This document shows positions 10,914 to 43,185 of a stretch of DNA of 45,664 bases, piece by piece. A program made the translations under genes and the position numbers. The notes under the pieces were generated by a model that had not been told where the DNA came from, searched no databases, and saw nothing but the letters and a program-made list of their open reading frames with translations. Each line of letters starts with the position of its first letter. Position 1 is the first letter of the stretch. The DNA is from Oscillospiraceae bacterium (GTDB taxonomy: Bacteria > Bacillota > Clostridia > Oscillospirales > Oscillospiraceae). Location: NCBI GenBank assembly GCA_017622995.1, contig JAGAQA010000020.1, positions 1-45,664 of the forward strand. Reading direction: 5' to 3'.

Positions 10914-10917
10914 GCCT

Positions 10918-11096: not shown

Positions 11097-11099
11097 ATC

Positions 11100-11930: not shown

Positions 11931-11939
11931 GGTGACGGC

Positions 11940-28731: not shown

Positions 28732-28973
28732 GTGGAAATGTATGGATGTTTTCTGACCAGATTGATGATGAAGATGTGGAGTTTATGACCCACGAATTTA
28801 TAACATACAACATGGCGTGTGATTATTACCGCCTGGGACTCAAGCCTGTCACTCGTATGGCGCACGAAGCCGGAGCGGTTTATAAGATCGGAAAAAAGGT
28901 ACTGATTCGCAGAAGCATTTTTGAGGCATATCTGCGAGAACAGCGCAGTGTGGAAAGGAGTGAGCGGGAATGA
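28728..28973 (+). CDS. Small excisionase-like transposon protein B
   Basis: An 81-residue relative of the preceding protein: YNMACDYYRLGLKPVTRMAHEAGAVYKIGKKVLIRRSIFEAYL (about 28-70, read with normal breaks) has the same helix-turn-helix and wing with a final I-R-R-S-I-F. The N-terminal part is acidic (DQIDDEDVEF). The gene overlaps its neighbours by 4 bases on each side, so the three genes form one translational unit. Probable role: DNA binding at element ends, or control of excision. Confidence 0.65.
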   Translation: MSGNVWMFSDQIDDEDVEFMTHEFITYNMACDYYRLGLKPVTRMAHEAGAVYKIGKKVLIRRSIFEAYLREQRSVERSERE

Positions 28974-29335
28974 AAGACGGTCTTGAATATAGCCTCGAAT
29001 ATATCCGTTCAGGTGATTACTTTATCCCGAATTTGACACTACCTGAGGAAACCCGCCCCATGGGCAAGTGGGGGCGAATGCACCGGGAGTATCTGAAAGA
29101 GCACAAGCCGATTCAATACAACTGCCTACTGCTGTCCGGCAAGCTGTGGACATACCTTGCAGACCTGAATGAGCAGGCGCAGGACAGGCTGGAACGAATC
29201 ATCTACCAGATGAAAGCTGCCGAGGGAATTACGGAAGCCTTGAAAGCCAGCGACTCAATGGCTTGGATTGGTGCCATGAATAATATCCACGCCCGAGCCG
29301 AGGAGATCATCCGAGAGGAGCTTATTTATGAATGA
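28970..29335 (+). CDS. tnpV: TnpV-family transposon protein
   Basis: A 121-residue protein of the TnpV family known from Tn4451-like and related clostridial elements. Marks: YIRSGDYFIPNLTLPEE at the N-terminus, GKWGRMHREYLKEHKP, LLSGKLWTYLADLNEQAQ, and the conserved end AEEIIREELIYE. Its function in the element is not established; it is not the recombinase. No serine or tyrosine recombinase is present in the window, so the element is incomplete here or its recombinase lies elsewhere. Confidence 0.85.
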   Translation: MKDGLEYSLEYIRSGDYFIPNLTLPEETRPMGKWGRMHREYLKEHKPIQYNCLLLSGKLWTYLADLNEQAQDRLERIIYQMKAAEGITEALKASDSMAWIGAMNNIHARAEEIIREELIYE

Positions 29336-29501: not shown

Positions 29502-29545
29502 ATCCCCCCGGGGGGCTTCCGGAACAGAGCAGAATCTGCTATACT
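29502..29545 (+). promoter_or_regulatory. GC-palindrome operator and promoter of methyltransferase 1
   Basis: ATCCCCCCGGGGGGCTTCCG at 29502-29521 is identical to 30601-30620. The palindrome CCCCCCGGGGGG is followed by -35-like TTCCGG (29517-29522), 17 bases, and TATACT (29540-29545). C-tract/G-tract operators of this kind are typical of the CsoR/RcnR family of metal-sensing repressors; no such gene is in the window, so the regulator is unknown. Confidence 0.65.
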
Positions 29546-29635: not shown

Positions 29636-30361
29636 ATGGAGATTGGACAGCGTGTCAAGGATTACTGGACTCAGCGTTCCCATGATTTTGGAACGGTTCG
29701 AAAGAATGAATTGGAAAACGAAATGGGGCAAAGGTGGCTCCATGAGATCGAACGGTTCCTGCCGGAGGGGAGAAGCCTGAATATTCTGGATGTGGGCACC
29801 GGCACCGGCTTCTTCGCGATTCTTTTGGCAGAAAAAGGACACCGGGTGGAGGGCATCGACCTGACCCCCGCCATGCTGGAGGAAGCCCGGTGGCTAGCGA
29901 AGCAGCGGAATCTCGATATTACTTTCCGGGAAATGGATGCACAGAATCTTGCGTATCCTGACGGCACCTTCGATGTGGTCATCAGCCGGAATCTCACATG
30001 GACGCTGCCAGACCCGCAGAGAGCCTACGCTTCGTGGTTCCGGGTGCTGAAGCCCGGCGGGGTGCTGCTGAACTTTGACGCGGAGTATGCCGCCCATGTG
30101 CGCAGCCACAGCGTCCAGAACCGCAAGGTCGCCCCGGACAGCCCCTACGGTCATGTGGGCATGACGGATGCACTGCAACAGGAGAACGACGCGATTACCC
30201 TTTCTATGGACATAGGGCAGGCACGCCCGGAATGGGACGGGAAGGTTTTGACCCGTATTGGCTTTCAAAGCTGTCAAACGGATACGCAGGTCGGGAAACG
30301 TCTGCTTGGCGAACTGGACTTGACCACCGCTCCCATGTTCGGCATCTTCGCTAAGAAATGA
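29636..30361 (+). CDS. Class I SAM-dependent methyltransferase 1
   Basis: A 241-residue cytosolic Rossmann-fold methyltransferase. Motif I is ILDVGTGTGFF (50-60), the acidic ribose-binding residue is Asp75 (VEGIDLTPAM), then MDAQNLAYPDGTFD (100-113), and a segment RNLTWTLPDPQRAY (118-131) leading to RVLKPGGVLLNFDAEY. The substrate is not recognised. The RN-TW-LP-P segment is shared with the next methyltransferase, so they form one subfamily, placed beside a NikABCDE-type importer. Start at 29636 follows AAAGGACGG. It has its own promoter and a stem-loop after it. Confidence 0.85.
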   Translation: MEIGQRVKDYWTQRSHDFGTVRKNELENEMGQRWLHEIERFLPEGRSLNILDVGTGTGFFAILLAEKGHRVEGIDLTPAMLEEARWLAKQRNLDITFREMDAQNLAYPDGTFDVVISRNLTWTLPDPQRAYASWFRVLKPGGVLLNFDAEYAAHVRSHSVQNRKVAPDSPYGHVGMTDALQQENDAITLSMDIGQARPEWDGKVLTRIGFQSCQTDTQVGKRLLGELDLTTAPMFGIFAKK

Positions 30362-30600
30362 TTGCATGAAAAACAACCGGAGGTACCGCACAGGTGCCTC
30401 CGATCATTTATGCATGTAAGCCAATCAATGCAGCTTTGGTGGGATCGATGGCTGTAAAAACATATTTTTGTAGAAAACGCACAGAATCCAGCCGTATGTT
30501 TCCGTTTTGGGTGCCCGGAATCCGGGCTTTGCACATGATTTTTTGTAGATATCCCACAAAAAATCCCCCTGCCGGGGATAGGGAAAAACGAAAATACGCA
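30362..30600. other. Non-coding gap between the methyltransferases
   Basis: No gene is seen. It holds a 10-bp stem-loop with one mismatch (30378-30387 with 30393-30402, likely the end of the methyltransferase 1 transcript), an inverted repeat TTTTTTGT/ACAAAAAA (30539-30562 region), and a palindrome ATCCCC-CTGCC-GGGGAT (30563-30579) reminiscent of, but weaker than, the operator at 30601. Confidence 0.6.
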
Positions 30601-30644
30601 ATCCCCCCGGGGGGCTTCCGTGGAAATCGATAGCGTGTTAAAAT
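30601..30644 (+). promoter_or_regulatory. GC-palindrome operator and promoter of methyltransferase 2 and the importer
   Basis: The same 20-base block as at 29502, then TTCCGT (30616-30621), 17 bases, TAAAAT (30639-30644). The spacing from palindrome to -35 and -10 is exactly as in the first copy, while the DNA after the block is unrelated, pointing to selected co-regulation. Confidence 0.65.
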
Positions 30645-30689
30645 ACGGATGAAACAAACAGATACACGCATTTTTCCTTCCTAATCCAT

Positions 30690-30732
30690 GAAAAACGCCG
30701 CGCTATGGGGAAGTAGCGGGGCGCTTTTCATA
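30690..30732 (+). promoter_or_regulatory. Terminator-like hairpin in the leader of methyltransferase 2
   Basis: AAAAACGCC-GCGCT, loop, AGCG-GGGCGCTTTTC forms an imperfect GC-rich stem followed by TTTT, about 25 bases before the gene start and about 40 after the predicted transcription start. It could attenuate the whole methyltransferase-importer operon. Confidence 0.5.
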
Positions 30733-30756
30733 ACTCCGATATTTGAGGTTACGATT

Positions 30757-31548
30757 ATGAAACAGTTTGCGACCTATGAAGAAGAAAATATCCACTACTG
30801 GACAAACCGGGCTTCCGGCTACTCCGGGGTCAATCAGGAGGAGTTGGCCTCCAACCAGAAAACGATCTGGCGGGGCGTCATCTCCCGGCGCATTGCTGCC
30901 CGGTTTCCGGGGAAGAAGCCCTCTCAGATACGGGTGCTGGACGTGGGCACCGGCCCAGGCTTTTTCGCCATTATTCTGGCGGAGCTGGGCTATCAGGTGA
31001 CCGCGGTGGACTATACCGCCTCCATGCTGGAGGAAGCTAAGGGCAACGCGGGGGTGTTGGCGGAGAAGATCGACTTCCGGCAGATGAACGCGGAGAAACT
31101 GACCTTCTCGACCGCTTCCTTTGATGTGCTGGTAACCCGGAATGTGACTTGGAATCTTCCCAACCCGGAGAAAGCCTATGCCCAGTGGATGCGGGTGCTG
31201 AAACCCGGCGGGCTGCTCCTGAACTTTGACGCCAACTGGTATCGCTACCTCTGGGACGAGGACGCCCAAGCGGCGCACGCACAGGACAGGGAGAACCTTC
31301 AGGCTTCGGATGTCCGGGACGAGAGTGCCGGAACGGACGTGGATGCCATGGAAGCCATCGCCCGGAAAACGCCGCTTTCCAAGCACCACCGCCCTGCGTG
31401 GGACTTGGATGTGCTGCGGGGACTGGGAATGCAGGCGAATGCTGATATGGAAGTCTGGAAGCAGGTTTGGACGAAAGAAGAGAGAATCAACAATGCTTCC
31501 ACGCCTATGTTCTTAGTGGAGGGTTTTAAGGTGGGTGTTGCTGTTTGA
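30757..31548 (+). CDS. Class I SAM-dependent methyltransferase 2
   Basis: A 263-residue paralogue of methyltransferase 1. Motif I is VLDVGTGPGFF (60-70), the acidic residue is Asp85 (VTAVDYTASM), then RQMNAEKLTF and RNVTWNLPNPEKAY (128-141) before RVLKPGGLLLNFDANW. It has an extra C-terminal stretch with DAMEAIARKTPLSKHHRPAW. Substrate unknown. The stop overlaps the start of the importer permease (TTG at 31545), so enzyme and importer are translated together, strong evidence that they serve one function. ATG at 30757 has only a weak ribosome site (TTTGAGGTT). Confidence 0.85.
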   Translation: MKQFATYEEENIHYWTNRASGYSGVNQEELASNQKTIWRGVISRRIAARFPGKKPSQIRVLDVGTGPGFFAIILAELGYQVTAVDYTASMLEEAKGNAGVLAEKIDFRQMNAEKLTFSTASFDVLVTRNVTWNLPNPEKAYAQWMRVLKPGGLLLNFDANWYRYLWDEDAQAAHAQDRENLQASDVRDESAGTDVDAMEAIARKTPLSKHHRPAWDLDVLRGLGMQANADMEVWKQVWTKEERINNASTPMFLVEGFKVGVAV

Positions 31549-32489
31549 AAAAATACGTTTTACACAGATTCTTACAACTGATACCCGTCCTCATTGGCAT
31601 CACCTTTCTGTCCTTTGCTATGATGCGCGTGGCCGGCAGTGATGCCATCATCGAGCTTTACGGCGATAAGGGCGCGGTGGCGCAGGAGATCATCGACACC
31701 AAACGGGCGGAACTGGGCCTCGATAAACCCTTCCTCACCCAGTATCTATCCTGGGTGGGCGGCATGATGCGGGGCGATATGGGCGTAAGCTATGTTTCCG
31801 GGAAAGATGTGTTTCAGACCTTCATTTCCAAGCTCCCGGCGACGCTGCTCCTTACCGCCCTGTCCATGGTCATGACAGTGGTCATTTCCATTCCGCTGGG
31901 TGTTCTGGCGGCGGTGCGGCATGACAAGTTCACAGACTACGTTCTGCGGTTTTTCAGCTTCGTGGGAAATTCCCTTCCCAACTTTTTCGTGGCGCTGCTC
32001 CTCATGCAGATTTTCTCCATCAAACTGAAAATGCTTCCCGTTATTTCCAAGGGGCTGAGTGTCCAGAGCGCCATGCTGCCCACCCTGACCCTTGCCATTG
32101 CCATGTCTGCCAAGTATATGCGGCAGGTGCGGGCCACGGTGCTGGAGGAGCTGAACAAGGATTACGTCATCGGCGCAAAGGCAAGAGGTGTCCGCAGCTC
32201 CGTGGTTCTCTGGAAAAGCGTGCTGAAATCCTCCATGCTCACCATCATCACGCTGCTGGCTCTGTCCATCGGAAGTCTCTTGGGCGGTACGGCGATTATT
32301 GAAAGTATTTTCATGTGGGACGGCGTGGGCAAGCTGGCGGTGGATGCCATCACCATGCGGGACTACCCCATGATTCAGGCTTATGTGGTCTGGATGGCAA
32401 TCATCTATGTGCTGGTCAACCTGATCACAGACCTGCTGTATCACGCCCTTGACCCGAGAATCCGACTGGGGGTGCGTGCGGATGCGTGA
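31545..32489 (+). CDS. NikB/DppB-type ABC permease (importer A)
   Basis: A 314-residue inner permease of the peptide/nickel ABC class. N-terminal helix (YVLHRFLQLIPVLIGITFLSF) is typical; about six helices; coupling region EELNKDYVIGAKARGV (the EAA-like loop with G) near residue 205; end YHALDPRIRLG. TTG at 31545 is the start, inside the methyltransferase 2 stop, with AAGGTGGG at 31526-31533 as ribosome site. It pairs with the next permease to form the membrane channel; substrate class is nickel, cobalt, chelates or peptides. Confidence 0.88.
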   Translation: MKKYVLHRFLQLIPVLIGITFLSFAMMRVAGSDAIIELYGDKGAVAQEIIDTKRAELGLDKPFLTQYLSWVGGMMRGDMGVSYVSGKDVFQTFISKLPATLLLTALSMVMTVVISIPLGVLAAVRHDKFTDYVLRFFSFVGNSLPNFFVALLLMQIFSIKLKMLPVISKGLSVQSAMLPTLTLAIAMSAKYMRQVRATVLEELNKDYVIGAKARGVRSSVVLWKSVLKSSMLTIITLLALSIGSLLGGTAIIESIFMWDGVGKLAVDAITMRDYPMIQAYVVWMAIIYVLVNLITDLLYHALDPRIRLGVRADA

Positions 32490-33333
32490 AGTTACCATAC
32501 GAAAGCAAAGGATCAAAAAGGACAGCGTAAAATTCCGTCTTATTCTGTTCGGCACCCTCGCTGTGCTGTTAATTGTCTGTTCCTTTTTCTCGGAGTATCT
32601 GACCCCCTGCGACCCCTATTTGCAGGATTTGAGCATTGCCAAGCAGCCGCCAGATGCGGAGCATCTTCTGGGTACGGACCGCTACGGACGGGATATGCTG
32701 TCCCGGGTCATTGTGGGCAGCCGAACCAGTATTTTTTCCACCCTTTTGCTGGTTGCGATCATCACCGCTTTGGGAACCGCCGTGGGCGTGGTCTGCGGCT
32801 GGAACGGCAAAGCGTTGGATACGGTGCTCATGCGGATTTCCGATCTGTTCCTGGCCTTCCCCGGACTGGTGTTCGCGCTGGCGGTAGCCGGTGTGCTGGG
32901 AGGCGGACTGCAAAACGCCATTATCGCGCTGGCGGCGATTTCCTGGCCCAAATATGCCCGGCTCGCCCGGAGCCAGACCCTTGCCCAGAAGGAAACGGCC
33001 TGGATGAAGGCGGCGAAGCTCTCCGGCAGCAGCACGGTCAAGCTCATTTTTAAGCATATCCTTCCCAACATCATCGGCCCGATTTTGGTGACGTCCATGC
33101 TGGACATCGGCACCATGATGATGGAGCTGGCTGCCCTGAGCTTTTTAGGGCTGGGGGCGAAACCGCCCATAGCGGAATGGGGCAGCATGATGAGCGACAC
33201 CCGGAGCCTGATGACCACCTCTCCCTGGATCACCTTCTCTCCCGGCATCGCGATATTCATCTCCGTTATGATCTTCAACCTGTTGGGCGACACCATCCGG
33301 GACTACGCAGACCCGAAGAGCCGAGGGAGGTAA
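32482..33333 (+). CDS. NikC/DppC-type ABC permease (importer A)
   Basis: A 283-residue second permease. Cytosolic N-terminus, first helix FRLILFGTLAVLLIVC, then the DppC-type LLGTDRYGRDMLSRVIVGSRTS (about 72-93) and the coupling loop with MKAAKLSGSSTVKLIFKHILPN. Ends NLLGDTIRDYADPKSRGR. Starts inside the nikB-type gene (8-base overlap, ATGCGTGA). Works with the preceding permease. Confidence 0.9.
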   Translation: MREVTIRKQRIKKDSVKFRLILFGTLAVLLIVCSFFSEYLTPCDPYLQDLSIAKQPPDAEHLLGTDRYGRDMLSRVIVGSRTSIFSTLLLVAIITALGTAVGVVCGWNGKALDTVLMRISDLFLAFPGLVFALAVAGVLGGGLQNAIIALAAISWPKYARLARSQTLAQKETAWMKAAKLSGSSTVKLIFKHILPNIIGPILVTSMLDIGTMMMELAALSFLGLGAKPPIAEWGSMMSDTRSLMTTSPWITFSPGIAIFISVMIFNLLGDTIRDYADPKSRGR

Positions 33334-33337
33334 CGGT

Positions 33338-34120
33338 ATGGAAGAATTGTTGCGATACGACCATGTGGACATTTCCTATAACGGCTTTCTGGCTGTGAAG
33401 GATGTGAGCTTCACCCTGGAACCCGGCGAAATTCTTGGCATCGTAGGCGAAAGCGGCTGCGGAAAATCCACCCTGATCAAAGCCGCCATGGGTCTGCTGG
33501 GGAGCGCCGGAATGGTGACCCGGGGCGACATCTGGTACAAGGGGAAAAATCTTCCCGATCTGTCAGCGAAAGAACTTCGCAGGCTCAACGGCCCAGAGCT
33601 GGGCATGATCTTCCAGAGCGCGGGCAGCTCCTTCTGCCCCATCCGCACCATTGGGGCGCAATTATATGAAACCATGACCGAGCACGAGAAAACTTCCAAA
33701 GCGGAATTTCTCGACCGGGCAATGGAACTTCTGGGCAAGCTGGGCTTTGAGGATGGAAAACGAGTCCTTGGAAGCTATCCCTTTGAACTGTCCGGCGGAA
33801 TGCAGCAGCGGGTGGGCATCGCTGCGGCCATGCTCCTAAATCCCAGCGTCCTTCTGGCGGACGAACCCACCTCCGCACTGGATGTATCTGTCCAGAAGCA
33901 GGTGGTAGAGGAAATGCTGCTGGTGCGCGAGACCTTTGGAACTGCCATTCTCTTGGTGGCCCACAACATCGGTGTCATCGGGGCCATGGCGGACAAGGTG
34001 CTGGTGATGAAGAACGGGGAAGCCGTGGAGTATGGCGACACCCGGCAGGTGCTTGGGAGCCCACAGGCAGCGTATACCCGGCAGCTTCTTTCCGCAGTGC
34101 CGAGACTACGGAGGGCATGA
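33338..34120 (+). CDS. NikD/DppD-type ABC ATPase (importer A)
   Basis: A 260-residue ATPase. Walker A GESGCGKST (37-45), signature LSGGMQQR (151-158), Walker B VLLADEP (171-177), H-loop in LLVAHNIG. It lacks the long C-terminal Cys-containing extension of OppD-type ATPases. It follows the permease by 4 bases and pairs with the next ATPase. Confidence 0.93.
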   Translation: MEELLRYDHVDISYNGFLAVKDVSFTLEPGEILGIVGESGCGKSTLIKAAMGLLGSAGMVTRGDIWYKGKNLPDLSAKELRRLNGPELGMIFQSAGSSFCPIRTIGAQLYETMTEHEKTSKAEFLDRAMELLGKLGFEDGKRVLGSYPFELSGGMQQRVGIAAAMLLNPSVLLADEPTSALDVSVQKQVVEEMLLVRETFGTAILLVAHNIGVIGAMADKVLVMKNGEAVEYGDTRQVLGSPQAAYTRQLLSAVPRLRRA

Positions 34121-34121
34121 G

Positions 34122-34886
34122 ATGGAACCGATTCTGAAAGTTGAAAATCTGACAAAGGTCTTCTCCCGCAGCGGTCAGGAGGATTTCACCGCCGTAAACA
34201 GCATCCGCTTTTCCCTGAACCCCGGCGAGTGCTTAGGCATCATTGGGGAAAGCGGCAGCGGCAAGACCACCGCGGTGAATATGATTACCCGGCTGCTGGA
34301 TGCCACAGAAGGAAGCATTCTGCTGGATGGTGAGGAGATTACCCATCTGAAAGGCAGGGAACTTCGTAAGGTCTATCGGAAAATGCAGATGGTGTTCCAG
34401 ACTCCCACAGATTCCTTTGACCCTCGCCGGACCCTGGGCGACGGCATTGGGGAGAGCCTGCGAAACATCGGGATGTCCCGGAAGGAAACCCGCGAAGAAG
34501 TGGAGCGGCTGCTGGGGAAGTGCGGGCTTCCTGCTGACTTTGCGGATCGCTATCCCCATCAGGTCAGCGGTGGACAATGCCAGCGGGCGGCTATCGCCCG
34601 GGCCCTTGCCGTAAAGCCAAGGCTTCTCATCTGTGATGAAGCCACCTCCGCGCTGGATGTGACCGTTCAGAAGGAAATTCTGGAACTGCTGAATGAACTT
34701 CGTTCCCAACAGGGAAACAGCCTGTCCATCCTGTTCATCTGCCACGACATTTCTCTGGTGCAGCAGTTCTGTGACCGGGTGCTGGTGATGTATCACGGCA
34801 GCATTGTGGAGGAGGGGGTTCCTGATGATGTGATCGGGCATCCCCAGAACGAATATACACAACGTCTGATTGACAGCATTCTATAG
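34122..34886 (+). CDS. NikE/DppF-type ABC ATPase (importer A)
   Basis: A 254-residue ATPase: Walker A GESGSGKTT (42-50), signature VSGGQCQR (148-155), Walker B LLICDEA (168-174), H-loop in FICHDIS. It ends soon after the core domain (NEYTQRLIDSIL) without the C-terminal domain that the corresponding ATPase of importer B has. Start 1 base after the previous stop. Confidence 0.93.
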   Translation: MEPILKVENLTKVFSRSGQEDFTAVNSIRFSLNPGECLGIIGESGSGKTTAVNMITRLLDATEGSILLDGEEITHLKGRELRKVYRKMQMVFQTPTDSFDPRRTLGDGIGESLRNIGMSRKETREEVERLLGKCGLPADFADRYPHQVSGGQCQRAAIARALAVKPRLLICDEATSALDVTVQKEILELLNELRSQQGNSLSILFICHDISLVQQFCDRVLVMYHGSIVEEGVPDDVIGHPQNEYTQRLIDSIL

Positions 34887-34906
34887 AAAAGAAAGGATCG
34901 ATGACA

Positions 34907-36502
34907 ATGAAAAAAGCGTTTTCCCTGATGATTGCCGCCTGCCTTGCGGTTTCTCTGCTGGCTGGCTGCGGCAGCAGTACCCCAGCGCAGGCACCTGCTT
35001 CTGACAATGGCAGCAATGCTCCCCAGCAGGAAGCCCCCGCATCCAAGAAGGTCATGACCATCGGCGACACCACCTTCAATTCCGAAAACTGGGAGGAAAC
35101 CGTTGACCCCCACCGCACCTACAACGGCTGGGCCTGCATCCGCTACGGCATCGGTGAGACACTGGTGCATTACACCGACACCATGGAGCTGGAACCCTGG
35201 CTGGCAAAGGAATGGAGCAACGATGGCAACTGCACCTGGACCATTACCTTGCAGGATAACGTCACCTTCTCCAGCGGACGGAAGATGGACGGCGCGGCTG
35301 TCAAGCAGTGCCTTGACCATTTACTTGCGAACCACGACCGCGCTCCCAGCGACACCAAGATCATTGATGTCAAGGCAGACGGTCAGGTGCTGACGATTAC
35401 CACCAGCGAGCCCAACCCCGCCCTCATGAACTATCTGGGCGACCCCTACGGCTGCATCATTGATGTAGACGCCAGCGACTTTGAAACCGGCATCGTTTCC
35501 GGCACCGGCCCCTATGTGGTGGTGGACATGGTCACCGACGATCACCTGACGCTGACCAAGAACACGAATTACTGGAACGGCACCCCCAAGATCGATGAAT
35601 TGACCATCCGCACCCTCAGTAACGGCGATACCCTGTCCGCCGCTTTGCAGGCCGGTGACATTGACGCCGCCTACGGCATGGCATACGAGGCTTACCCCAA
35701 TTTTGAAAACGGCGATTATCAGTTCTCCTCCATTCAGACCTCCCGGGCCTTCTTCGGCTCCATGAACATGACCAGCCCCATCATTCAGGACGCGGCAGTT
35801 CGGAAAGCCATCGCCATGGGCATCAACAAGGAAGGCTTCGTGGCGACCCTGCTGGATGGTCACGGCGTTCCCGGCAACGGCGCGTTCCCCAACGGCTTCT
35901 CCTCTTTCGGCGGTGAGAAGGTCACGACGGAAACCTACGATCCCGAAGGAGCCAAGGCGGTTCTGGAAGGGGCTGGCTGGATGGACACCGACGGCGACGG
36001 CATCCGGGAGAAGGACGGCGTGAAACTGACCATTCGGTGGCTGACCTATCCCAGTCGTCAGGAGCTGCCCCTGCTGGCCGAGTCCGCACAGGCAAGCCTT
36101 AAGGAAATCGGCATTGACGTGGATATCAACTGCACCGCCAATCGTCGGGAGTTCTTAAAGGATATGACCAGCTGGGATGTCTACGCCTCCGCCTTGGTCA
36201 CCGCCCCCTCCGGTGATCCCCAGTATTTCTTCACCACCAGCTGCCTGCCCGGCATGAGCTACAATTTTGGCGCCTATGAGAACGAGGAAGTCAGCGCAAT
36301 GATCGAAGAACTGTCCACCGAGTTCGACACCGCCAAGCGGGGTGAGCTGGCAGTCCGCCTACAGCAGGCGATTCTCGATGATAACGCCTACGTCTTCTGC
36401 TCCTTCCTGCAAATGAACATGATTTCCAAGACCAACGTGACGGGTTATACCGCCCACGCATGTGACTACTATCAGGTCACGGCAGAATTGGATATCAACT
36501 GA
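34907..36502 (+). CDS. NikA/DppA-type binding lipoprotein (importer A)
   Basis: A 531-residue extracytoplasmic binding protein (SBP_bac_5). Lipobox LLAGC with Cys21 as the lipid anchor; then a Ser/Pro/Ala linker and the binding domain, starting KVMTIGDTTFNSENWEETVDP. The family binds nickel-chelate, peptides or similar ligands; ligand residues cannot be read. It is at the end of the operon, unlike importer B where the binding gene is first. ATG at 34907 is preferred over ATG at 34901 because AAAGGA (34890-34895) is then well spaced. Confidence 0.9.
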   Translation: MKKAFSLMIAACLAVSLLAGCGSSTPAQAPASDNGSNAPQQEAPASKKVMTIGDTTFNSENWEETVDPHRTYNGWACIRYGIGETLVHYTDTMELEPWLAKEWSNDGNCTWTITLQDNVTFSSGRKMDGAAVKQCLDHLLANHDRAPSDTKIIDVKADGQVLTITTSEPNPALMNYLGDPYGCIIDVDASDFETGIVSGTGPYVVVDMVTDDHLTLTKNTNYWNGTPKIDELTIRTLSNGDTLSAALQAGDIDAAYGMAYEAYPNFENGDYQFSSIQTSRAFFGSMNMTSPIIQDAAVRKAIAMGINKEGFVATLLDGHGVPGNGAFPNGFSSFGGEKVTTETYDPEGAKAVLEGAGWMDTDGDGIREKDGVKLTIRWLTYPSRQELPLLAESAQASLKEIGIDVDINCTANRREFLKDMTSWDVYASALVTAPSGDPQYFFTTSCLPGMSYNFGAYENEEVSAMIEELSTEFDTAKRGELAVRLQQAILDDNAYVFCSFLQMNMISKTNVTGYTAHACDYYQVTAELDIN

Positions 36503-36579: not shown

Positions 36580-36616
36580 TTTTAACGATAAAACGCATAA
36601 CAAATATGTCCTGTGC

Positions 36617-36893
36617 TTTCCAATGCGCAAGCCGGTTGGAAAGCTGAAAAGAGAACGGGGTGCAAAGCCCGACACACAACGGTGCTGTAAGTATCGAGAT
36701 TCTGACCGCGTCGGCGGAAGCCGGTCATTGGGGAAACCTGAGAAGGCAGCGGCAGCAATCGTTTGAGGTACAAGTCAGAAGAACTGCAGGAGATTATATC
36801 GCGCGCAGAAGTTGTACTTGCGCGTGTGTTTGTCGTGTAAAAACGTTCGCGGCAGCCTCTTCCTTTTTGGGATCGAGGCTGCCGCGTTTTTGT
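36617..36893 (+). ncRNA. Cobalamin riboswitch 1 with terminator
   Basis: A stem CTTTCCAA/TTGGAAAG (36617-36644) precedes the conserved core: GGGGTGCAAAGCCC (36657-36670), GTGCTGTAAG (36682-36691), TCATTGG then GAGAAGGC (36724-36747), and a B12-box relative AAGTCAGAAGAACTGC (36772-36787). The expression platform is a perfect 12-bp terminator (36848-36859 with 36875-36886) and TTTTT. Binding of cobalamin is expected to favour the terminator and lower MATE expression. The boxes deviate more from consensus than those of riboswitch 2. Confidence 0.75.
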
Positions 36894-36908: not shown

Positions 36909-38264
36909 ATGCGTAAAGAATTGGATTTGACCAGAGGAAGCATTCCCAAAGTACTGACTGCCTTTATCGTTCCTATGATTTTGGGAAGTCTTATCCAGCA
37001 GCTCTATACCACAGCGGACGCGGTGATCGTAGGGCAGTTTGCGGGAAAGGTGGGTCTTGCCGCCATTGATTCCGTACACACTCTGTTTAAGTTTCCGATT
37101 AACTTCATGAACGGTCTGGCGGCAGGCGCAACCATCCTGATTTCCGGCTATTACGGCGCAAAGGATGAAAAAAGCCTTCGCTGCTGCGTCCGGACCGCCA
37201 ATACGCTGGCGCTGATTCTTGGTGTGCTCTGTGCCGTTGCCGGCGTGATCTTTACGCCGCAGCTGCTGAACATCATGGCAGTACCCCAGGAAATTTATCC
37301 GCAAACCCTTGCCTATACCCGGATTTACTTCGGCGGTATCTGGGCAATGGTTCTGTACAACATGATGGCGGGAATCCTCCGAGCCTTCGGTGATTCCAGC
37401 CGGCCGCTGTATGTGCTGATTCTCAGCTCCATCCTGAATATCGTGGGGGATTTCCTGCTGGTGGGTATCTTCCATATGGGCGTTCAGGGTGCCGCCATTG
37501 CGACGGTTGCCGCACAGATCGTGAGCGTCCTGTGCGTCGCGGGAATGATCCGTAAAATGGAGCATATTTCCGAAGGAAAGTCCATGCTGCATGTCCATTT
37601 CTGTGGCGAGCACATGAGCGCGATGGTCAAAACCGGCATCCCTCTGGCGCTCCAGTCCATTCTCTTCCCCATTGCCAACTCCATCGTGCAGGCCAGCGTC
37701 AACGGCATGGGTACCGACAGCATTGCCGCCTGGGGCATCTGTGACAAGATGAATCTGCTCATCTGGCTGATTGCCGATGCCATGAGTCCGGCGCTCACAA
37801 CGTATACGGCACAGAATCTGGGCGCAAACCAGCCGGGACGGGTGAAAAAAGGTGTGCTATTGGGCACAGGAATGTCAGTCGGCGCCGTGGCACTGGTGAG
37901 TCTTGTGCTTTATCTGGGAGCAGGCACCATCGGCGGCTGGTTCGTCCCTGGGTCTGACCGGGCATCGGTTATCCCTCTGGTCATCCGATATACCCACATG
38001 ATGGCGCCTTTCTTCGTGTTCTACGCGGTGGCAGAAGCCTTCACCGGTGCCTGCTGCGGCATGGGCGATACCTTGAAACCCATGCTGACGACCCTGATTA
38101 CCGTTTGTCTGCTGCGGGTTGTCTGTATTTTCTTTGTGCTGCCTGCCTACCGCACGATGGAGTGCATCGTGTTTATCTACATTGCTTCCTGGATTGCCGC
38201 AGGGCTTTCCTTTACCGCCATGTACGCGTGGAAGCAGCACAGAATGCTTAAGCAAAAGGAGTGA
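36909..38264 (+). CDS. MATE-family exporter under cobalamin riboswitch control
   Basis: A 451-residue antiporter with about 12 helices; MATE marks are VPMILGSLIQQLYTTADAVIVGQFAG (25-50 region) and the parallel AVIV/GQ in the second half (PLALQSILFPIANSIVQASVNGMG). Substrate unknown. Its leader carries a cobalamin riboswitch, so it is predicted to be made when B12 is low. That makes export of a cobalt or corrinoid-scavenging ligand possible; detoxification is the alternative. ATG at 36909 follows GGAGAGG; longer frames to 36660 run through the riboswitch and are not credible. Four bases separate it from the arsR-type gene. Confidence 0.88.
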   Translation: MRKELDLTRGSIPKVLTAFIVPMILGSLIQQLYTTADAVIVGQFAGKVGLAAIDSVHTLFKFPINFMNGLAAGATILISGYYGAKDEKSLRCCVRTANTLALILGVLCAVAGVIFTPQLLNIMAVPQEIYPQTLAYTRIYFGGIWAMVLYNMMAGILRAFGDSSRPLYVLILSSILNIVGDFLLVGIFHMGVQGAAIATVAAQIVSVLCVAGMIRKMEHISEGKSMLHVHFCGEHMSAMVKTGIPLALQSILFPIANSIVQASVNGMGTDSIAAWGICDKMNLLIWLIADAMSPALTTYTAQNLGANQPGRVKKGVLLGTGMSVGAVALVSLVLYLGAGTIGGWFVPGSDRASVIPLVIRYTHMMAPFFVFYAVAEAFTGACCGMGDTLKPMLTTLITVCLLRVVCIFFVLPAYRTMECIVFIYIASWIAAGLSFTAMYAWKQHRMLKQKE

Positions 38265-38268: not shown

Positions 38269-38562
38269 ATGCAGATAGCCCCTGAAACCATGCATCGGAT
38301 TGCCGCGCTGTTCAAAGGCTTTGATGACCCCACCCGAATCCACATTCTATCCCTGCTCATTGAAGGAGAGCGGTGTGTCGGTGAAATTGCCGATACGATG
38401 AACCTGACCCAGAGTGCGGTTTCCCATCAGCTGCGGATTTTGAAGGCAATGAAGCTGATAAAATACCGCCGGGACGGGAAAAACCTGTTCTACTCCCTGG
38501 CGGATGACCATGTGCTGTGCATCCTGCAAACCGGCTTAGACTATATCAACACCAACCCATAA
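38269..38562 (+). CDS. ArsR-family (CzrA/NmtR-like) regulator
   Basis: A 97-residue winged-helix repressor. FKGFDDPTRIHILSLLIEG and GEIADTMNLTQSAVSHQLRILKAMKLI are typical; the wing is YRRDGKNLFYSLADDHV. The alpha-5 region DDHVLCILQTGLDYINTN keeps the D-x-H half of the CzrA-type metal site but has Tyr and Thr where the second His pair would be, so metal binding would be altered. Cys residues (RCVGE, LCIL) might contribute. It is cotranscribed with the MATE gene (4-base gap) and may repress that operon or the importers. AAAAGGAGTG is its ribosome site. Confidence 0.88.
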   Translation: MQIAPETMHRIAALFKGFDDPTRIHILSLLIEGERCVGEIADTMNLTQSAVSHQLRILKAMKLIKYRRDGKNLFYSLADDHVLCILQTGLDYINTNP

Positions 38563-38589
38563 TCTGGTCGTTTCAATTCTGACCAATTT

Positions 38590-38840
38590 CATAAGGAAGT
38601 AAGTTCCAGCAATGGATCAAAAGGGAACCCGGTGAAAGTCCGGGACGATCCCGTCACTGTAAAAGCGAGCAAGCCGCATTTATGTCACTGAGGCATGACA
38701 CTCGGGAAGGCGCGGTAAGCGATGCGCTTAAGTCAGGAGACCTGCTTATTTCTGGTTTCTGAGATTCTTACGGACGATAGGAAATTCTCTTTGTCAGCCC
38801 ACCGCCTGTAACCATCGTTACAGGCGGCGTCTGCTTTTCG
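38590..38840 (+). ncRNA. Cobalamin riboswitch 2 with expression platform
   Basis: Very close to the cobalamin riboswitch consensus: GGGAACCCGGTGAAAGTCC (38623-38641), GGGACGATCCCGTCACTGTAA (read in parts, 38642-38662), GTCACTGAGGC (38684-38694), CTCGGGAAGGCG (38701-38712) and the B12 box AAGTCAGGAGACCTGC (38730-38745). A hairpin CCGCCTGTAAC/GTTACAGGCGG (38802-38827) followed by CGTCTGCTTTT is the probable terminator. The binding lipoprotein of importer B follows. No strong promoter is evident between 38563 and 38590, so it may lie on readthrough from the MATE-ArsR unit. Confidence 0.93.
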
Positions 38841-38906
38841 GCAGAGCCAATGGGGGTTGAGAAATGGTCGGAATCGAACAATATATGCAAAAGGAAGATG
38901 AAGCGA

Positions 38907-40565
38907 ATGAAAAACTGCAAAAAACTGATTGCGCTGCTTCTGTCCGCTGCCCTCGCCGCCGGTGTCATGACCGGATGCGGAAGCGCCGACACTGGCAGTA
39001 CCCCCACCACCCGTCCCGCTGCTGAAAACCGGGAGGGCGAAGTCAACCAGCAGGCCTTTGAGGCGGAGCACGCTGTCGCCACCGACCGCACTCTGACCTT
39101 CGGTATTCAGGAATACTCCATCGGTGTGGACCCTGCGCAGGAGGTTAATACCGCCTGGAACTGCTCCCGCTATGGTATCGGCGAGTGCCTGTTCCGTTTC
39201 GATAACTCCATGAACGTGATGCCCTGGCTGTGCGACAGCTATACCGTGAGTGATGACCATACCGAGTGGGTGTTCCACATCCGGGACGGCGTTCAGTTCT
39301 CGGACGGCTGCCCCTGCAATGCTGCTGCGGTGAAGGCCAGCATTGAGCGGCTGTTCCGGGACAGCGTGGGCGGCTCCTCCAAACCCAAGACCTTCCTGGC
39401 GGAGGAATCCGTGCTGACCGTGGATGATGCTGCCAACACCCTCACCATCGTCACCCCGGAGCCTGTGGTGGATCTGACCAAGAATCTGTGCCATCCTGTT
39501 ATGATCGTTCTGGATGTGGCCCATACCACCGACTATGTGGCGGCCCCCATCGGCACCGGTCCCTATGCCGCAAAGAAGTTCACCGAACACGTTGGCATGA
39601 CCGTTGTCCGCAACGAGCACTATTGGAAGGGCGAAGTGCCCTATGCTTCCATCGAACTGCTGTACATGGGTGACGCGTCTGCCAAGGCCATGGCGCTGCA
39701 GGCAGGGCAGGTGGATTTGGTGGAAAACATAACCAACATTGCCGACCTGGATAATCTGCGCAACGACCCCAATTTCACGGTTACCATCGCCCCCGGCATC
39801 CGCACCGGCATCTGCCACATGAACGTCTCCGAGGGCAAGCTCCTGAGCAACGCCACCCTGCGCCACGCCATTTTCAAGGCCATTGACCGGGATACCATGT
39901 GTTCTGTCACCGTTGGCGGACTGTACACCGCCGGCTTCTCCGTGCTGCCCTCCAATCTGGACTACGGCTACGACAATCTCACCAACCCCGACCCCTATGA
40001 CCCCGAGGAAGCCATGCGGATTTTGGACGAAGCCGGTATCGTGGACACCAACGGCGACGGCATCCGGGAGCTGGACGGCAAGGAAATCATGCTCAAGTAC
40101 GTCACCTATCCAAACCGGTGTCTCGATACCTTTGCCGAAGCTGTACAGCAGCAGCTGACCGCGGTGGGCATCGGTGTTGACCTGATTATCTCCGACGGCG
40201 CCGGACAGTGGGATTCCTATCAGTCCGGAGACTTTGACATCAACTCCTCCAACTGGAACACCGCCGCCACCGGCGACCCCTGCGAGTATATGAACGCATG
40301 GTGGGGTGACTGCGAGGCGGATTACTGCGGCTACAACAATCCCGAGTACAATGAACTGTTCGCAAAGCTCCAGACAACCTACGACGATGCCCAGCGGAAA
40401 GATATCATTCAGCGGCTCCAGCAGATTCTGATTGATGATGCCGCCGCCTTCCCTCTGGGCTACTACAACTCCTCCATGATCTCCAACAACGCTGCCATTG
40501 GCGGCGCGGCAATCAATACAGCGGATTATTACTGGGTCACCACCGACATCTATCCCGCTGCCTGA
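38907..40565 (+). CDS. NikA/DppA-type binding lipoprotein (importer B)
   Basis: A 552-residue SBP_bac_5 protein, paralogue of the one at 34907. Lipobox GVMTGC with Cys24; linker STPTTRPA; binding domain from RTLTFGIQEYSIGVDP. Shared with importer A are the W-CSRYGIGE-type segment and the DTNGDGIRELDG repeat near the second lobe. ATG at 38907 is chosen because AAAGGAAG (38890-38897) is 9 bases away; upstream ATGs run back toward the riboswitch. First gene after riboswitch 2, so uptake should rise when cobalamin is low. Confidence 0.9.
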   Translation: MKNCKKLIALLLSAALAAGVMTGCGSADTGSTPTTRPAAENREGEVNQQAFEAEHAVATDRTLTFGIQEYSIGVDPAQEVNTAWNCSRYGIGECLFRFDNSMNVMPWLCDSYTVSDDHTEWVFHIRDGVQFSDGCPCNAAAVKASIERLFRDSVGGSSKPKTFLAEESVLTVDDAANTLTIVTPEPVVDLTKNLCHPVMIVLDVAHTTDYVAAPIGTGPYAAKKFTEHVGMTVVRNEHYWKGEVPYASIELLYMGDASAKAMALQAGQVDLVENITNIADLDNLRNDPNFTVTIAPGIRTGICHMNVSEGKLLSNATLRHAIFKAIDRDTMCSVTVGGLYTAGFSVLPSNLDYGYDNLTNPDPYDPEEAMRILDEAGIVDTNGDGIRELDGKEIMLKYVTYPNRCLDTFAEAVQQQLTAVGIGVDLIISDGAGQWDSYQSGDFDINSSNWNTAATGDPCEYMNAWWGDCEADYCGYNNPEYNELFAKLQTTYDDAQRKDIIQRLQQILIDDAAAFPLGYYNSSMISNNAAIGGAAINTADYYWVTTDIYPAA

Positions 40566-40575
40566 AAAACGGACT

Positions 40576-40606
40576 TCCACCGGGGAGCATTTCCCGGTGG
40601 AGCTTT
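40576..40606 (+). terminator. Intercistronic stem-loop after the importer B lipoprotein
   Basis: TCCACCGGG (40576-40584) pairs with CCCGGTGGA (40593-40601), then GCTTTT. Such a partial terminator between the binding protein and the permeases commonly gives an excess of the binding protein. Confidence 0.7.
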
Positions 40607-40628
40607 TCCAAGATAAGGGGAGAGTACT

Positions 40629-41567
40629 ATGAACGCGAAACAACTTGGAAAACGGCTGCTTCAAATTGTCATTGTGGCGTTGGGCATCACGTTTCTCACC
40701 TTTTTGATCACCTATCTTGCCCCCGGTGACCCGGTGCGCACTATGTTTGCCGCTACCGGCGTCGTGCCCAGCGAGGAGCTGGTGCAGGAGACCCGGGAGG
40801 AAATGGGTCTGAACCGCCCGGTGCTGGTTCAGTATTTCGACTGGCTGACCGGGTGCCTGCGAGGGGACTTCGGCACCTCCTATTCCTTCCATAAGCCGGT
40901 GTCCGCGCTGCTTCTGGCACGGCTTTGGCCCACGCTGAAGCTGTCGCTGATGAGCATGGTGCTGATGCTTCTGGTGGCGGTGCCCATTGGTATGGCCCAG
41001 GCAACCCACAAAAACAGCCCCATTGACTATGCCCTTCGGGGAATTACCTTCTTCGGCGTGTCCATGCCCAATTTCTGGGTGGGCATGCTGCTGATGCTGT
41101 TTTTCTGCGTCCGGCTGAAATGGCTGCCCGTGGTCTGCTCCGGCGGCGATTTCAAAAGCCTGATTCTGCCCGCTGTGACTCTGGCCTTCGCCATGTCCGC
41201 CAAATACACCAGGCAGGTGCGTACCGCCATCGTGGAGGAACTGAGTCAGGACTACGTCATCGGCGCCAGAGCCAGAGGCGTGCCGGAGTGGAAGATTCTG
41301 TGGTGCAATGTGTTTCCCAATTCGCTGCTGCCGCTGATCACCATGCTGGGCCTGTCCCTGGGTTCCCTGCTGGGCGGCACTGCGGTGGTGGAGGTCATCT
41401 TCACCTACCCGGGCCTGGGCAATCTGGCGGTCAGCGCCATTACATCCTACGACTATCCGCTGATTCAGGGGTATGTGCTCTGGATTTCGCTGATATATAT
41501 GCTGGTCAATCTGGCTGTGGATATCTCCTACAGCTATGTTGACCCCAGAATGCGGGAAAAGAGGTAA
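40629..41567 (+). CDS. NikB/DppB-type ABC permease (importer B)
   Basis: A 312-residue permease with six helices: LGKRLLQIVIVALGITFLTF at the N-terminus, LAPGDPVRTMF, and the coupling loop EELSQDYVIGARARGVPEWK near 200-218. It ends SYSYVDPRMREKR. It follows the lipoprotein by 63 bases with AAGGGGAG as ribosome site, and pairs with the next gene. Confidence 0.9.
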   Translation: MNAKQLGKRLLQIVIVALGITFLTFLITYLAPGDPVRTMFAATGVVPSEELVQETREEMGLNRPVLVQYFDWLTGCLRGDFGTSYSFHKPVSALLLARLWPTLKLSLMSMVLMLLVAVPIGMAQATHKNSPIDYALRGITFFGVSMPNFWVGMLLMLFFCVRLKWLPVVCSGGDFKSLILPAVTLAFAMSAKYTRQVRTAIVEELSQDYVIGARARGVPEWKILWCNVFPNSLLPLITMLGLSLGSLLGGTAVVEVIFTYPGLGNLAVSAITSYDYPLIQGYVLWISLIYMLVNLAVDISYSYVDPRMREKR

Positions 41568-41573
41568 CAGGAT

Positions 41574-42392
41574 ATGGAGTTTATCAAAAAGAATAAAGCG
41601 TTCTGCCTGTTTGCGCTTCTCGCCCTTCTCATTATCCTCGGTGCTGTTTTTGCCCCGGTGCTCACCGGCGGCGTCAGCCCCACGGACGCGGTGCTGCGAG
41701 ATGCCCTGCAAGCCCCCAGCGCAAAGCATATCTGCGGTACGGACAAGCTGGGGCGGGATGTGTTTGCACGGGTGATCTACGGTGCCCGCACCAGTCTCAC
41801 GGCAACCTTTGCGGTGGTCGCCATCATTTTTGCGCTGGGCAGTGTCCTTGGCGTGCTGGCAGGCTACTTTGGCGGCTGGGTGGATACCATCATCATGCGC
41901 GTTGCCGACATGATGGTTTCCTTCCCCGGTATGGTGTTCGCCATTGCCATTGCGGGTATCCTGGGTGCCAGCGTGAAAAATGCCGTTATCGCCGTAGCGC
42001 TGGTGAGCTGGACGAAATACGCCCGGTTGGCCCGGAGTCTGGTTCTGAAAATACGAAACCGGGATTTTGTATCCGCTGCCATCGTCACCGGTTCCAAAAC
42101 GCCCTACATTCTGACAAAATATATGCTTCCCAACGTCATTCCCACACTGGTCATCACCGCGGCCACCGATATCGGCGGCATGATGCTGGAGCTGGCAGGC
42201 CTTTCCTTCCTTGGCTTCGGTGCCAAAGCGCCTACGCCGGAATGGGGACTGATGCTCAACGAGGGCAGGCAGTTCATCTCCAACGCCCCCTGGATGATGT
42301 TCTATCCGGGCCTTGCGATTTTCGTTGTGGTGGTGGTGTTCAACCTGCTGGGCGATGCCCTGCGGGATGTGCTGGACCCCAGAAATGAGTAA
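41574..42392 (+). CDS. NikC/DppC-type ABC permease (importer B)
   Basis: A 272-residue permease: ICGTDKLGRDVFARVIYGARTS (about 50-71, in parts) is the DppC mark; coupling loop with VSAAIVTGSKTPYILTKYMLPN; end NLLGDALRDVLDPRNE. Six bases separate it from the previous gene. Confidence 0.9.
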   Translation: MEFIKKNKAFCLFALLALLIILGAVFAPVLTGGVSPTDAVLRDALQAPSAKHICGTDKLGRDVFARVIYGARTSLTATFAVVAIIFALGSVLGVLAGYFGGWVDTIIMRVADMMVSFPGMVFAIAIAGILGASVKNAVIAVALVSWTKYARLARSLVLKIRNRDFVSAAIVTGSKTPYILTKYMLPNVIPTLVITAATDIGGMMLELAGLSFLGFGAKAPTPEWGLMLNEGRQFISNAPWMMFYPGLAIFVVVVVFNLLGDALRDVLDPRNE

Positions 42393-42402
42393 GGAGGCAA
42401 GT

Positions 42403-43185
42403 ATGCTGGAAATTAAGAATATCACGGTCTGCTACGGTGACCGCCCTACAGTCAGAGATTTTTCCATGAACTTAAAGCAGGGGCAGATTGCCTCCCTGGT
42501 GGGAGAATCCGGCTCCGGCAAAACCACCGTCATCCGCGCTGTGCTGGGACTGCTGCCCGGCGGCGGCAGAGTCAGTGAAGGCGACATTCTCTTTGACGGG
42601 AAATCTCTGCTGCAAAATACGCCCATGGAGTGGCGGAAGCTCCGGGGCAGTGAAATCTCCATGATCTTTCAGGACTCCGGCGCCATGCTCAATCCCATCC
42701 GCAGGATTGGCGACGGGTTCGTTGAGTACATCCGCACCCACGAGGAAATTTCCAAACAGGAAGCCTGGAAAAAGGGAACTGCCATGCTGGAAAAGATGCG
42801 TCTTGCCGGGGCGGAAAACATTATGCAGTCCTATCCCTTCCAGCTCTCCGGCGGTATGCGTCAGCGGGTGGGCATCGCCATGGCCATGACCTATGACCCC
42901 AAGCTCCTGCTGGCGGACGAACCCACCTCGGCGCTGGATGTGACCACCCAGGCCCAGATTGTCCGGCAAATGATGGAGCTGCGGGACACCTATGGAACCA
43001 GTATCATCGTGGTGACCCACAATCTGGGTGTGGCGGCCTATATGTCGGACAACATTGTTGTGATGCGCCGTGGGCAAATCGAGGATCAGGGAGACCGGGC
43101 GCATATCCTCAGCCACTCCGAAAACGCCTACACCCGCACACTGCTGGACGCGGTTCCGTCCTTGGGAGGGTTACGCTATGTTTGA
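42403..43185 (+). CDS. NikD/DppD-type ABC ATPase (importer B)
   Basis: A 260-residue ATPase: Walker A GESGSGKTT (34-42), signature LSGGMRQR (148-155), Walker B LLLADEP (168-174), H-loop VVTHNLG. ATG at 42403 with AAGGAGGC as ribosome site. Overlaps the next gene by 8 bases. Confidence 0.93.
   Translation: MLEIKNITVCYGDRPTVRDFSMNLKQGQIASLVGESGSGKTTVIRAVLGLLPGGGRVSEGDILFDGKSLLQNTPMEWRKLRGSEISMIFQDSGAMLNPIRRIGDGFVEYIRTHEEISKQEAWKKGTAMLEKMRLAGAENIMQSYPFQLSGGMRQRVGIAMAMTYDPKLLLADEPTSALDVTTQAQIVRQMMELRDTYGTSIIVVTHNLGVAAYMSDNIVVMRRGQIEDQGDRAHILSHSENAYTRTLLDAVPSLGGLRYV

Follow-up and report, generated by a model that had tools for sequence, protein, structure and literature searches.

A methyltransferase pair that accompanies Nik- and Fec-type importers, with a probable role in nickel and cobalt acquisition

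Why should an operon for an ABC importer begin with two methyltransferase genes? The question is raised by the window analysed here, a stretch of 45,664 bases that is an entire contig (C9) of an Oscillospiraceae bacterium whose 2.55-Mb genome lies in 66 contigs. Between positions 29636 and 36502, a single run on the + strand holds genes for two class I S-adenosylmethionine (SAM)-dependent methyltransferases, MT1 and MT2, followed by NikB-, NikC-, NikD-, NikE- and NikA-type genes (Table 1). A first-pass annotation of the window had described the two enzymes as paralogues of one subfamily with a shared segment, placed ahead of a full nickel/peptide-type importer, the second overlapping the permease start, and had proposed that the whole acquires cobalt or nickel. 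The description is borne out by the analysis reported here. The operon very probably has a role in nickel or cobalt acquisition, and sequence comparison supports the view that such uptake loci systematically include the methyltransferases.

A methyltransferase subfamily at importer loci

MT1 and MT2 are 41% identical across MT2 residues 13-239 and have one segment in common, in the forms RNLTWTLPDP and RNVTWNLPNP. Both clear the Pfam Methyltransf_11/25 cut-offs comfortably, and the residues of the SAM site (G64, G66, G68 and D85) are invariant in 60 aligned sequences; the site is intact as judged from these residues, and activity is predicted. Arg128, Trp132, Asp158, Arg212 and Asp216 are further conserved residues. 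The AlphaFold2 model of MT2 has a mean pLDDT of 96 and a pTM of 0.92. The top NCBIfam match of both proteins is the corrinoid protein-associated methyltransferase CpaM (NF043040), with 67.4 and 63.8 bits, which does not reach the cut-off of 180, and the sole PADLOC match is a likeness of the SAM domain to mad2. A tree of 104 rows, for which midpoint rooting alone was used, recovers two clades: the MT1 type, with 31 rows and an SH-aLRT support of 99, and the MT2 type, with 22 rows and a support of 82. Because there are two paralogous clades, and because 28 of the 70 subfamily loci defined below hold at least two of these enzymes, the pair looks old and not the product of a recent duplication, which suggests that a two-enzyme step has been kept across the subfamily.

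Open reading frames (ORFs), Pfam and NCBIfam together give a complete importer: a substrate-binding protein, two permeases and two ATPases (NikBCDE-NikA, 31545-36502), the NikB start overlapping the MT2 stop codon. Measured against the curated NCBIfam cut-offs for nickel, NikC is above, NikB 2 bits short, NikA well short and both ATPases under. In a comparison with the PDB, the nearest solved relatives of NikA are nickel-binding proteins, with 3t66 at the top, followed by SaNikA (4ofj) and Escherichia coli NikA. The importer is, by these matches, of the nickel/peptide (Nik/Opp) type, and binding of a nickel or cobalt chelate is predicted.

Loci around relatives of MT1 and MT2 were fetched from a collection holding one genome per species, using a profile of their orthologues (A1), and the best 80 of at least 250 confirmed candidates were studied. 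The 70 loci scoring at least 100 bits, mostly full-length, define the subfamily; 8 loci below 80 bits, matched in the SAM domain only, form a generic group; the remaining two, L121 and L135, are truncated by contig ends, yielded no ORF for the count and belong to neither group. An importer gene of Nik or Fec/Btu type was found within 3 kb in 54 of the 70 subfamily loci and in none of the 8 generic methyltransferase loci; since some genomes are related, such per-locus counts are not independent and the statistics are indicative only. Nik-type binding proteins or permeases account for 42 of the 54 and Fec/Btu-type ones for 17, some loci having both. Within 1.5 kb, the score was 50 of 70 for the subfamily versus 0 of 25 in a comparison set of loci surrounding methyltransferase hits from related genomes, a set in which L013 represents a lone subfamily member without a transporter. 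The arrangement of methyltransferase and importer is thus, on this comparison of neighbourhoods, not a matter of chance. Such a neighbourhood analysis had been proposed in the first-pass annotation; its premise that uptake operons normally do without methyltransferases has to be amended, since a sizeable set of them carries this subfamily.

The hosts include many Bacillota, Desulfovibrio, Gilliamella, Paenibacillus, Virgibacillus, Sporomusa and actinomycetes, and, among the archaea, Methanosarcina, Methanothrix, Methanocella and Archaeoglobaceae. The MT1-MT2-NikB block also occurs in genomes G005, G009, G013 and G045, MT2 touching or overlapping NikB in the first two and standing apart in the others. 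Within the genus of the window the distribution is patchy, close MT2 orthologues being present in 5 of 73 genomes, many of them incomplete. Directly upstream of MT1, at 28465-29335, lie short ORFs that I presume to resemble mobile-element accessory and TnpV-type proteins, and such mobile-element-like ORFs may account for the patchiness. An integrase-like gene, identified by reading, is found near the cbiM operon on contig C44 (L045, 15359-16654).

Other genes within 3 kb point to the same metals. LarC was counted in 4 of the 70 loci, LarE in 2, LarB in 2 and the CsoR family in 2, while NikR, CbiM, a TonB-dependent receptor and a MATE exporter (the latter by similarity to that of the window) occur once each; AspA, with 6 loci, is taken up below. 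LarE and LarB are above curated cut-offs in L089 and L110, as are LarC in L110 and the NikR beside the methyltransferase of Virgibacillus (L093). In L081, where CsoR-family PF02583 was confirmed, CbiM is divergent from MT2-MT1 and between them lies one copy for each of the operator described in the next section. The part of the first-pass annotation that assigned the operon to cobalt or nickel is strengthened by these LarC, LarE, LarB, NikR or CbiM neighbours and by that operator, which the operon shares with cbiM.

The richest arrangement seen, that of Acetobacterium (L098, 11-13436), has a Nik importer, an ORF with two methyltransferases, a pair of ABC genes, a third methyltransferase and FecBC in one run; one member of the ABC pair was scanned and has an exporter-type membrane domain.

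Operator, candidate regulator and the adjoining B12-controlled unit

The MT1 and MT2 promoters each consist of ATCCCCCCGGGGGGCTTCCG, then 18 nt, then a TATAAT-like box. The exact 17-mer CCCCCCGGGGGGCTTCC has 3 copies in the 2.55-Mb genome, two of them at MT1 and MT2, and also occurs in orthologous loci and in other genera. With up to one mismatch allowed, the genome has four sites: those of MT1 and MT2 and two in tandem, 208 nt apart, before an operon of cbiM, cbiQ and an ATPase gene, which is followed by a cobalamin riboswitch and by CbiK and other B12 genes (CbiM, CbiQ, the ATPase and CbiK were identified). Of 81 genomes of the same genus, 15 hold 19 matches to CCCCCNGGGGGGCTTCC, the reversed-pattern control giving 0. 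Assignment of the 19 sites, by similarity and reading plus three Pfam scans, gave five to cbiM, five to MT1 or MT2, three to Fec/Btu-type genes and two to a gene for an energy-coupling factor (ECF) S component with another methyltransferase; the remaining four have no attributed target or only a hairpin behind them. In the two ECF loci, L055 and L068 (1575-2705), the operator precedes the S component (PF12822 in L055), which precedes a 194-residue methyltransferase of a different type, a second pairing of methyltransferase and importer with the same operator.

The operator also accompanies the methyltransferases farther afield. The neighbour-family clustering covered 65 loci (the subfamily loci L128, L129, L132, L136, L138, L139 and L140 and the 8 generic ones lie outside it), and in 64 of these, L121 being omitted, the operator core was sought with up to 3 of 15 mismatches; it occurs within 300 nt upstream in 16 of the 64 loci, versus 1.1% of control windows. 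Eight further genomes, chosen because their methyltransferase loci carry the operator, contain 32 sites, with 0 for the reversed pattern in all eight. Twenty of these sites have at most one mismatch, and 17 of the 20 precede genes of nickel/cobalt-uptake, HypB-like, MATE or methyltransferase type: subfamily methyltransferases or AspA-MT2 in 7, CbiM, NikB or NikA in 4, FecCD in 2, other methyltransferases in 2, and a HypB-like gene (Pfam cobW/HypB/UreG) and a MATE gene in one each. The loci by which the genomes had been chosen account for nine of the 20; of the 11 new ones, 9 precede the kinds of gene just named. The first downstream gene was identified by Pfam in L177, L180, L187, L188, L189, L193, L203 and L204 and as CbiM by NCBIfam in L176 (as in L081), and otherwise by similarity or reading, FecCD in L179 and L198 because of its resemblance to L058. 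Among the 12 sites with two mismatches, some stand upstream of CbiM or of a Nik-type permease gene (L199, L202, L195), and those of L196 and L200 look like chance. From the genes behind it, I read this operator as the mark of a nickel/cobalt regulon that operates without NikR. Cobalt is the likelier metal in the genome of the window, because the only other near-exact target is the cbiM operon adjoining B12 genes; nickel is likelier in other genomes, judging from their Lar, NikR and HypB-like genes.

Which protein reads the operator? NikR was considered and rejected: PF08753 is found in 0 of 13 genomes, that of the window included, and in 5 of 14 control genomes. Of 11 genomes, 10 encode a CsoR-family protein whose long tail is rich in His, and the eleventh encodes a fusion of LarC and CsoR; the family is common, being present in 6 of the 14 controls. 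The operator lies 74-76 nt upstream of the His-rich CsoR gene in G005 and G009 only, with 3 mismatches; the corresponding sites in the genome of the window and in L222 are loose (7 and 5 mismatches), and 8 of the 12 genes tested have no operator-like site upstream. At 5 of 8 CsoR genes without the tail, sites of the form ATACCCC-N-GGGGTA were found, which I take to be of the copper type. The His-rich protein, encoded at C36:58288 in the genome of the window, is the leading candidate and perhaps the reader of the operator, but on these sites it is a lead only. The fused protein is encoded by a single ORF of G149 (L221, 685-1740), in which the nickel-insertion LarC domain and the CsoR/RcnR-family repressor domain are both above Pfam cut-offs.

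Two kinds of putative RNA element stand behind the operator. In the genus of the window, the first kind is a short leader that frequently comes after the operator and closes with a GC-rich hairpin (GGGGA-type loop); it stands before MT2, before cbiM or with no gene close behind and could be a small RNA or an attenuator. Besides the MT2 leader, such hairpins behind the same operator were seen upstream of cbiM (L045, 4390-4475) and in L050, L052, L063, L067 and L069, those of the window's own genome in single-strand folds and the others by reading. The second kind, seen in G143 and G147 behind the operator-promoter, is a stretch of ~120-150 nt that is conserved and contains CCUC-type boxes; its copies in L187 (-), L193 (+), L197 (+) and L201 (+) each start ~50 nt behind the operator start, and 3 of the 4 have a terminator-like hairpin. 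By its position, this stretch is a candidate nickel/cobalt-controlled small RNA.

The genes downstream of NikA are controlled otherwise. The first-pass annotation had joined a riboswitch-controlled exporter and a second importer to the methyltransferase operon as one system; both exist, and it is their membership that fails. The MATE-ArsR pair and the second importer each follow a cobalamin riboswitch and, on these sequence features, form a separate B12-controlled unit. No cobalamin riboswitch precedes MT1 in the window, where only chance matches to miRNA-type hairpins were obtained, and riboswitch control of the methyltransferase operons in general was rejected, 0 of 27 other loci having a cobalamin riboswitch at the gathering score. 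The binding protein of the second importer (SBP_bac_5, 256.5 bits) is NikA-like in the PDB comparison; its permeases and ATPases were identified from ORFs. Directly after this importer, at 44149-45369, lies a lipoprotein-like ORF of 406 residues that by eye resembles a substrate-binding protein. A third Nik-type importer of the same genome (contig C20; L046, ~6675-12253) stands behind a cobalamin riboswitch, with no subfamily methyltransferase close by.

Table 1. Features of the methyltransferase-Nik operon and of the adjoining unit (positions in the window; bit scores with cut-offs where given)
Feature	Position	Strand	Description
Operator-promoter of MT1	29502..29545	+	ATCCCCCCGGGGGGCTTCCG, 18 nt, TATACT
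MT1, class I SAM-dependent methyltransferase, MT1 clade	29636..30361	+	241 aa; Pfam PF08241 91.4 bits
Operator-promoter of MT2	30601..30644	+	ATCCCCCCGGGGGGCTTCCG, 18 nt, TAAAAT
MT2 leader, GC-rich hairpin (GGGGAAG in loop) and T-run	30645..30740	+	possible terminator/attenuator or small RNA
MT2, class I SAM-dependent methyltransferase, MT2 clade	30757..31548	+	263 aa; Pfam PF08241 83.8 bits
NikB-type permease	31545..32489	+	TTG start; PF00528; NCBIfam Opp2B 347.9 bits (cut-off 350)
NikC-type permease	32482..33333	+	NCBIfam Opp2C 308.1 bits (cut-off 300, passed)
NikD-type ATPase	33338..34120	+	ABC_tran; top NCBIfam CntF/CntD/NikD, all under cut-offs
NikE-type ATPase	34122..34886	+	ABC_tran; OppF/NikE-like, under cut-offs
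NikA-type substrate-binding lipoprotein	34901..36502	+	SBP_bac_5 242.8 bits; Opp5A_nikA 348.9 bits (cut-off 600, under)
Cobalamin riboswitch before MATE-ArsR	36594..36805	+	RF00174 61.9 bits (gathering 31.5)
MATE exporter	36909..38264	+	PF01554 165.5 bits; TIGR00797 208.3 bits
ArsR/SmtB-family metalloregulator	38269..38562	+	PF01022; NF033788 90.7 bits, above cut-off
Cobalamin riboswitch before second Nik-type importer	38584..38763	+	RF00174 110.9 bits (gathering 31.5)
Second Nik-type importer	38898..44152	+	substrate-binding protein 38898-40565; permeases 40629-41567 and 41574-42392; two ATPases to 44152

What the methyltransferases may act on

Taken as a whole, the data are best explained by paired methyltransferases acting on an organic ligand of the imported nickel or cobalt, an explanation that I hold to have an even chance of being right; that the substrate is a small-molecule ligand of the metal I would likewise neither bet on nor against. 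Metal shortage would cause a repressor, perhaps of the CsoR/RcnR family, to leave the operator, and the Nik importer would take up cobalt or nickel complexed with a small organic ligand, which, once in the cytosol, would be methylated by MT1 and MT2 at different sites. Methylation would lower the hold of the ligand on the metal and so lead to its release, and a MATE exporter could expel the spent ligand. In some relatives an AstE/AspA-type amide hydrolase would assist: in L077 the catalytic domain shares an ORF with MT1, in L084 it lies between MT2 and MT1 within one ORF, L078, L079 and L082 resemble AspA-MT fusions (by similarity only), and in G147 an AspA-type gene that is not fused overlaps an MT2-type gene behind the operator. 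The reverse direction is conceivable, with a primary metabolite being converted by the methyltransferases into a methylated chelator that is exported and then taken up again; post-import processing of the ligand is slightly ahead of its biosynthesis.

The strongest rival is a secreted methylated metallophore, built by the methyltransferases from a primary metabolite or SAM, exported by a MATE-type protein and retrieved with its metal by Nik- or Fec-type carriers, a possible explanation that falls well short of even chances. It draws on the export partners, MATE adjoining the methyltransferases or being co-regulated with them in three lineages: between MT1 and MT2 in L095 (by similarity), directly behind the methyltransferase in the archaeal L118, and behind the operator in Selenomonas (L189). 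Because of these loci, an export step is still conceivable. A TonB-dependent receptor is encoded upstream of MT-FecBCD in Sporomusa ovata (L142), and in Kibdelosporangium (L136) a distant member is surrounded by a metallophore-like cluster with a pyridoxal-phosphate enzyme, DUF364 (according to Pfam, putative heavy-metal chelation), a RimK-type ATP-grasp protein, a major facilitator superfamily transporter and FecBC. Unexplained extra methyltransferases are reported in some opine-zincophore clusters with dipeptide- or FecCD-type importers (PMC7438024). On the other hand, an exporter is not seen in most of the operons, and among the neighbour families common to at least three of the 65 clustered loci there is none that builds a scaffold (domains fused to the methyltransferase were not separated). 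Membership of the opine metallophores in particular was rejected: PF03059 (CntL/NAS) is found in 0 of 13 operator- or orthologue-bearing genomes, that of the window included, the Methanosarcina acetivorans control being positive. Where NAS is present (3 of 16 genomes, all three actinomycetes), the stretches read around it contain no subfamily methyltransferase, the lone methyltransferase-like hit near NAS being a 42-bit match in an ORF of doubtful frame. CntM and CntK are not among the recurring neighbour families of the 65 loci, a list that was made without a search dedicated to them. The suggestion of the first-pass annotation that the methyltransferases make or trim a metallophore stays a conjecture, there being no recurring scaffold-building family in the clustered loci and no CntL in the 13 genomes. 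For want of such a family, processing of a ligand, or the simple derivatisation of a primary metabolite, is likelier than a full metallophore pathway, and the latter keeps a place because export partners exist.

It is unlikely that the methyltransferases act on a nickel or cobalt cofactor (a corrinoid, the nickel-pincer nucleotide or another tetrapyrrole), the shared control reflecting cofactor demand. CpaM is the top NCBIfam match, the operator-linked cbiM operon precedes CbiK and other B12-pathway genes, LarC, LarE and LarB are neighbours, and FecBCD/Btu-type proteins are partners; yet the CpaM scores are far under the cut-off, no cobalamin riboswitch was found in the 27 other methyltransferase loci, and the link to importers holds across hosts, including the loci of Gilliamella and Paenibacillus, where the stretches read have no corrinoid genes. 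Very improbable, and strongly disfavoured, is an ordinary peptide importer with housekeeping methyltransferases as chance neighbours. The Nik/Opp/Dpp family does include peptide importers, and NikA and NikB fall well and just under the curated nickel cut-offs; against this stand the importer linkage of the subfamily as opposed to the generic loci, the operator common to cbiM and other metal genes, the Lar and NikR neighbours, and the MT2-NikB contact kept in G005 and G009. Least probable of all is a metal or metalloid detoxification in which the enzymes methylate a toxic compound entering with the metal, since the likeness to arsenite methyltransferase families that suggests it is weak (~42-63 bits, the cut-offs being 240-575), importers are under the same control, and no arsenic-modifying family is among the neighbour families in at least three of the 65 clustered loci.

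Several observations weigh against the ligand explanation. It hinges on the substrate, which is deduced, and in the search of solved structures the matches of the methyltransferases are confined to the SAM-binding half. The window's own operon has no AspA-type hydrolase, and within 3 kb the hydrolase is found in only 6 and MATE in 1 of the 70 loci. Since the loci were collected starting from the methyltransferase, the association is not a share of all Nik operons; in 16 of the 70 the 3-kb neighbourhood lacks a Nik or Fec gene, so some members of the subfamily may act elsewhere, some of these loci being near contig ends and one, L081, having CbiM. As to the operator, the genome of the window has 11 further sites with 2-3 mismatches and no attributed target (reversed control 1), 3 of the 20 near-exact sites do not precede genes of the expected kinds, the archaeal loci among the 64 scanned show none, and most actinomycete loci lay outside that scan.

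Going beyond a single operon, I tentatively propose, as a conjecture less likely to be right than wrong, a non-opine nickel/cobalt ligand cycle extending from Clostridia to methanogenic archaea. Two dedicated methyltransferases would interconvert the metal-binding and the metal-releasing form of a small chelator, in some lineages together with an AstE/AspA-type hydrolase or MATE, and Nik/Fec-type carriers would transport the complex; in Clostridia, a His-rich CsoR-family sensor would act at the C6G6-CTTCCG operator, controlling also cbiM, a hypB-like gene and candidate small RNAs.

Nickel and cobalt are the metals of hydrogenase, acetyl-CoA synthase, methyl-CoM reductase and B12, and how anaerobes without NikR sense and acquire them is poorly known. 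The methyltransferase subfamily is probably an unrecognised part of metal acquisition. Together with the cross-genus operator, it provides a defined gene set and chemistry and a marker for finding more members, and the result would tell what many genes labelled just class I SAM-dependent methyltransferase do. A narrow search of the open full texts in PMC, with subscription papers and preprints outside its reach, found no description of the association or of the operator; the word methyltransferase is absent from the text obtained of PMC11247825 and PMC10617489.

Comparison with known systems

The operator resembles those of the CsoR/RcnR/InrS sensors in being a palindrome of a C-tract and a G-tract, and a CsoR-family gene is present in 11 of 11 genomes; the flanks of the operator, however, differ from ATACCCC-N-GGGGTA. 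Known members of that family mostly control efflux. CpaM, although it heads the NCBIfam matches of both methyltransferases, is matched over ~110 residues around the SAM domain and far under 180 bits.

Opine metallophore systems (staphylopine, pseudopaline; CntKLM-CntABCDF) likewise combine a peptide- or FecCD-type importer with SAM-using enzymes, some with MatE exporters and some clusters with extra methyltransferases (PMC7438024); unlike them, the loci described here conserve no enzyme throughout other than the methyltransferases. In Clostridium tetani and Desulfitobacterium, a NikABCDE importer controlled by a B12 riboswitch has already been described (PMC2667541). The window's second importer, at 38584-44152, is a further case of this kind, whereas the methyltransferase operon has no riboswitch match and a different operator. 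Among the nearest known systems is NikABCDE/Opp5 itself, represented by the NikA proteins of E. coli and Staphylococcus aureus, with which the operon has in common the five-gene importer and a NikA closest to nickel-binding structures; it differs in having NikR in 0 of 13 genomes, a C6G6 operator common with cbiM, and two SAM-dependent methyltransferases in the lead.

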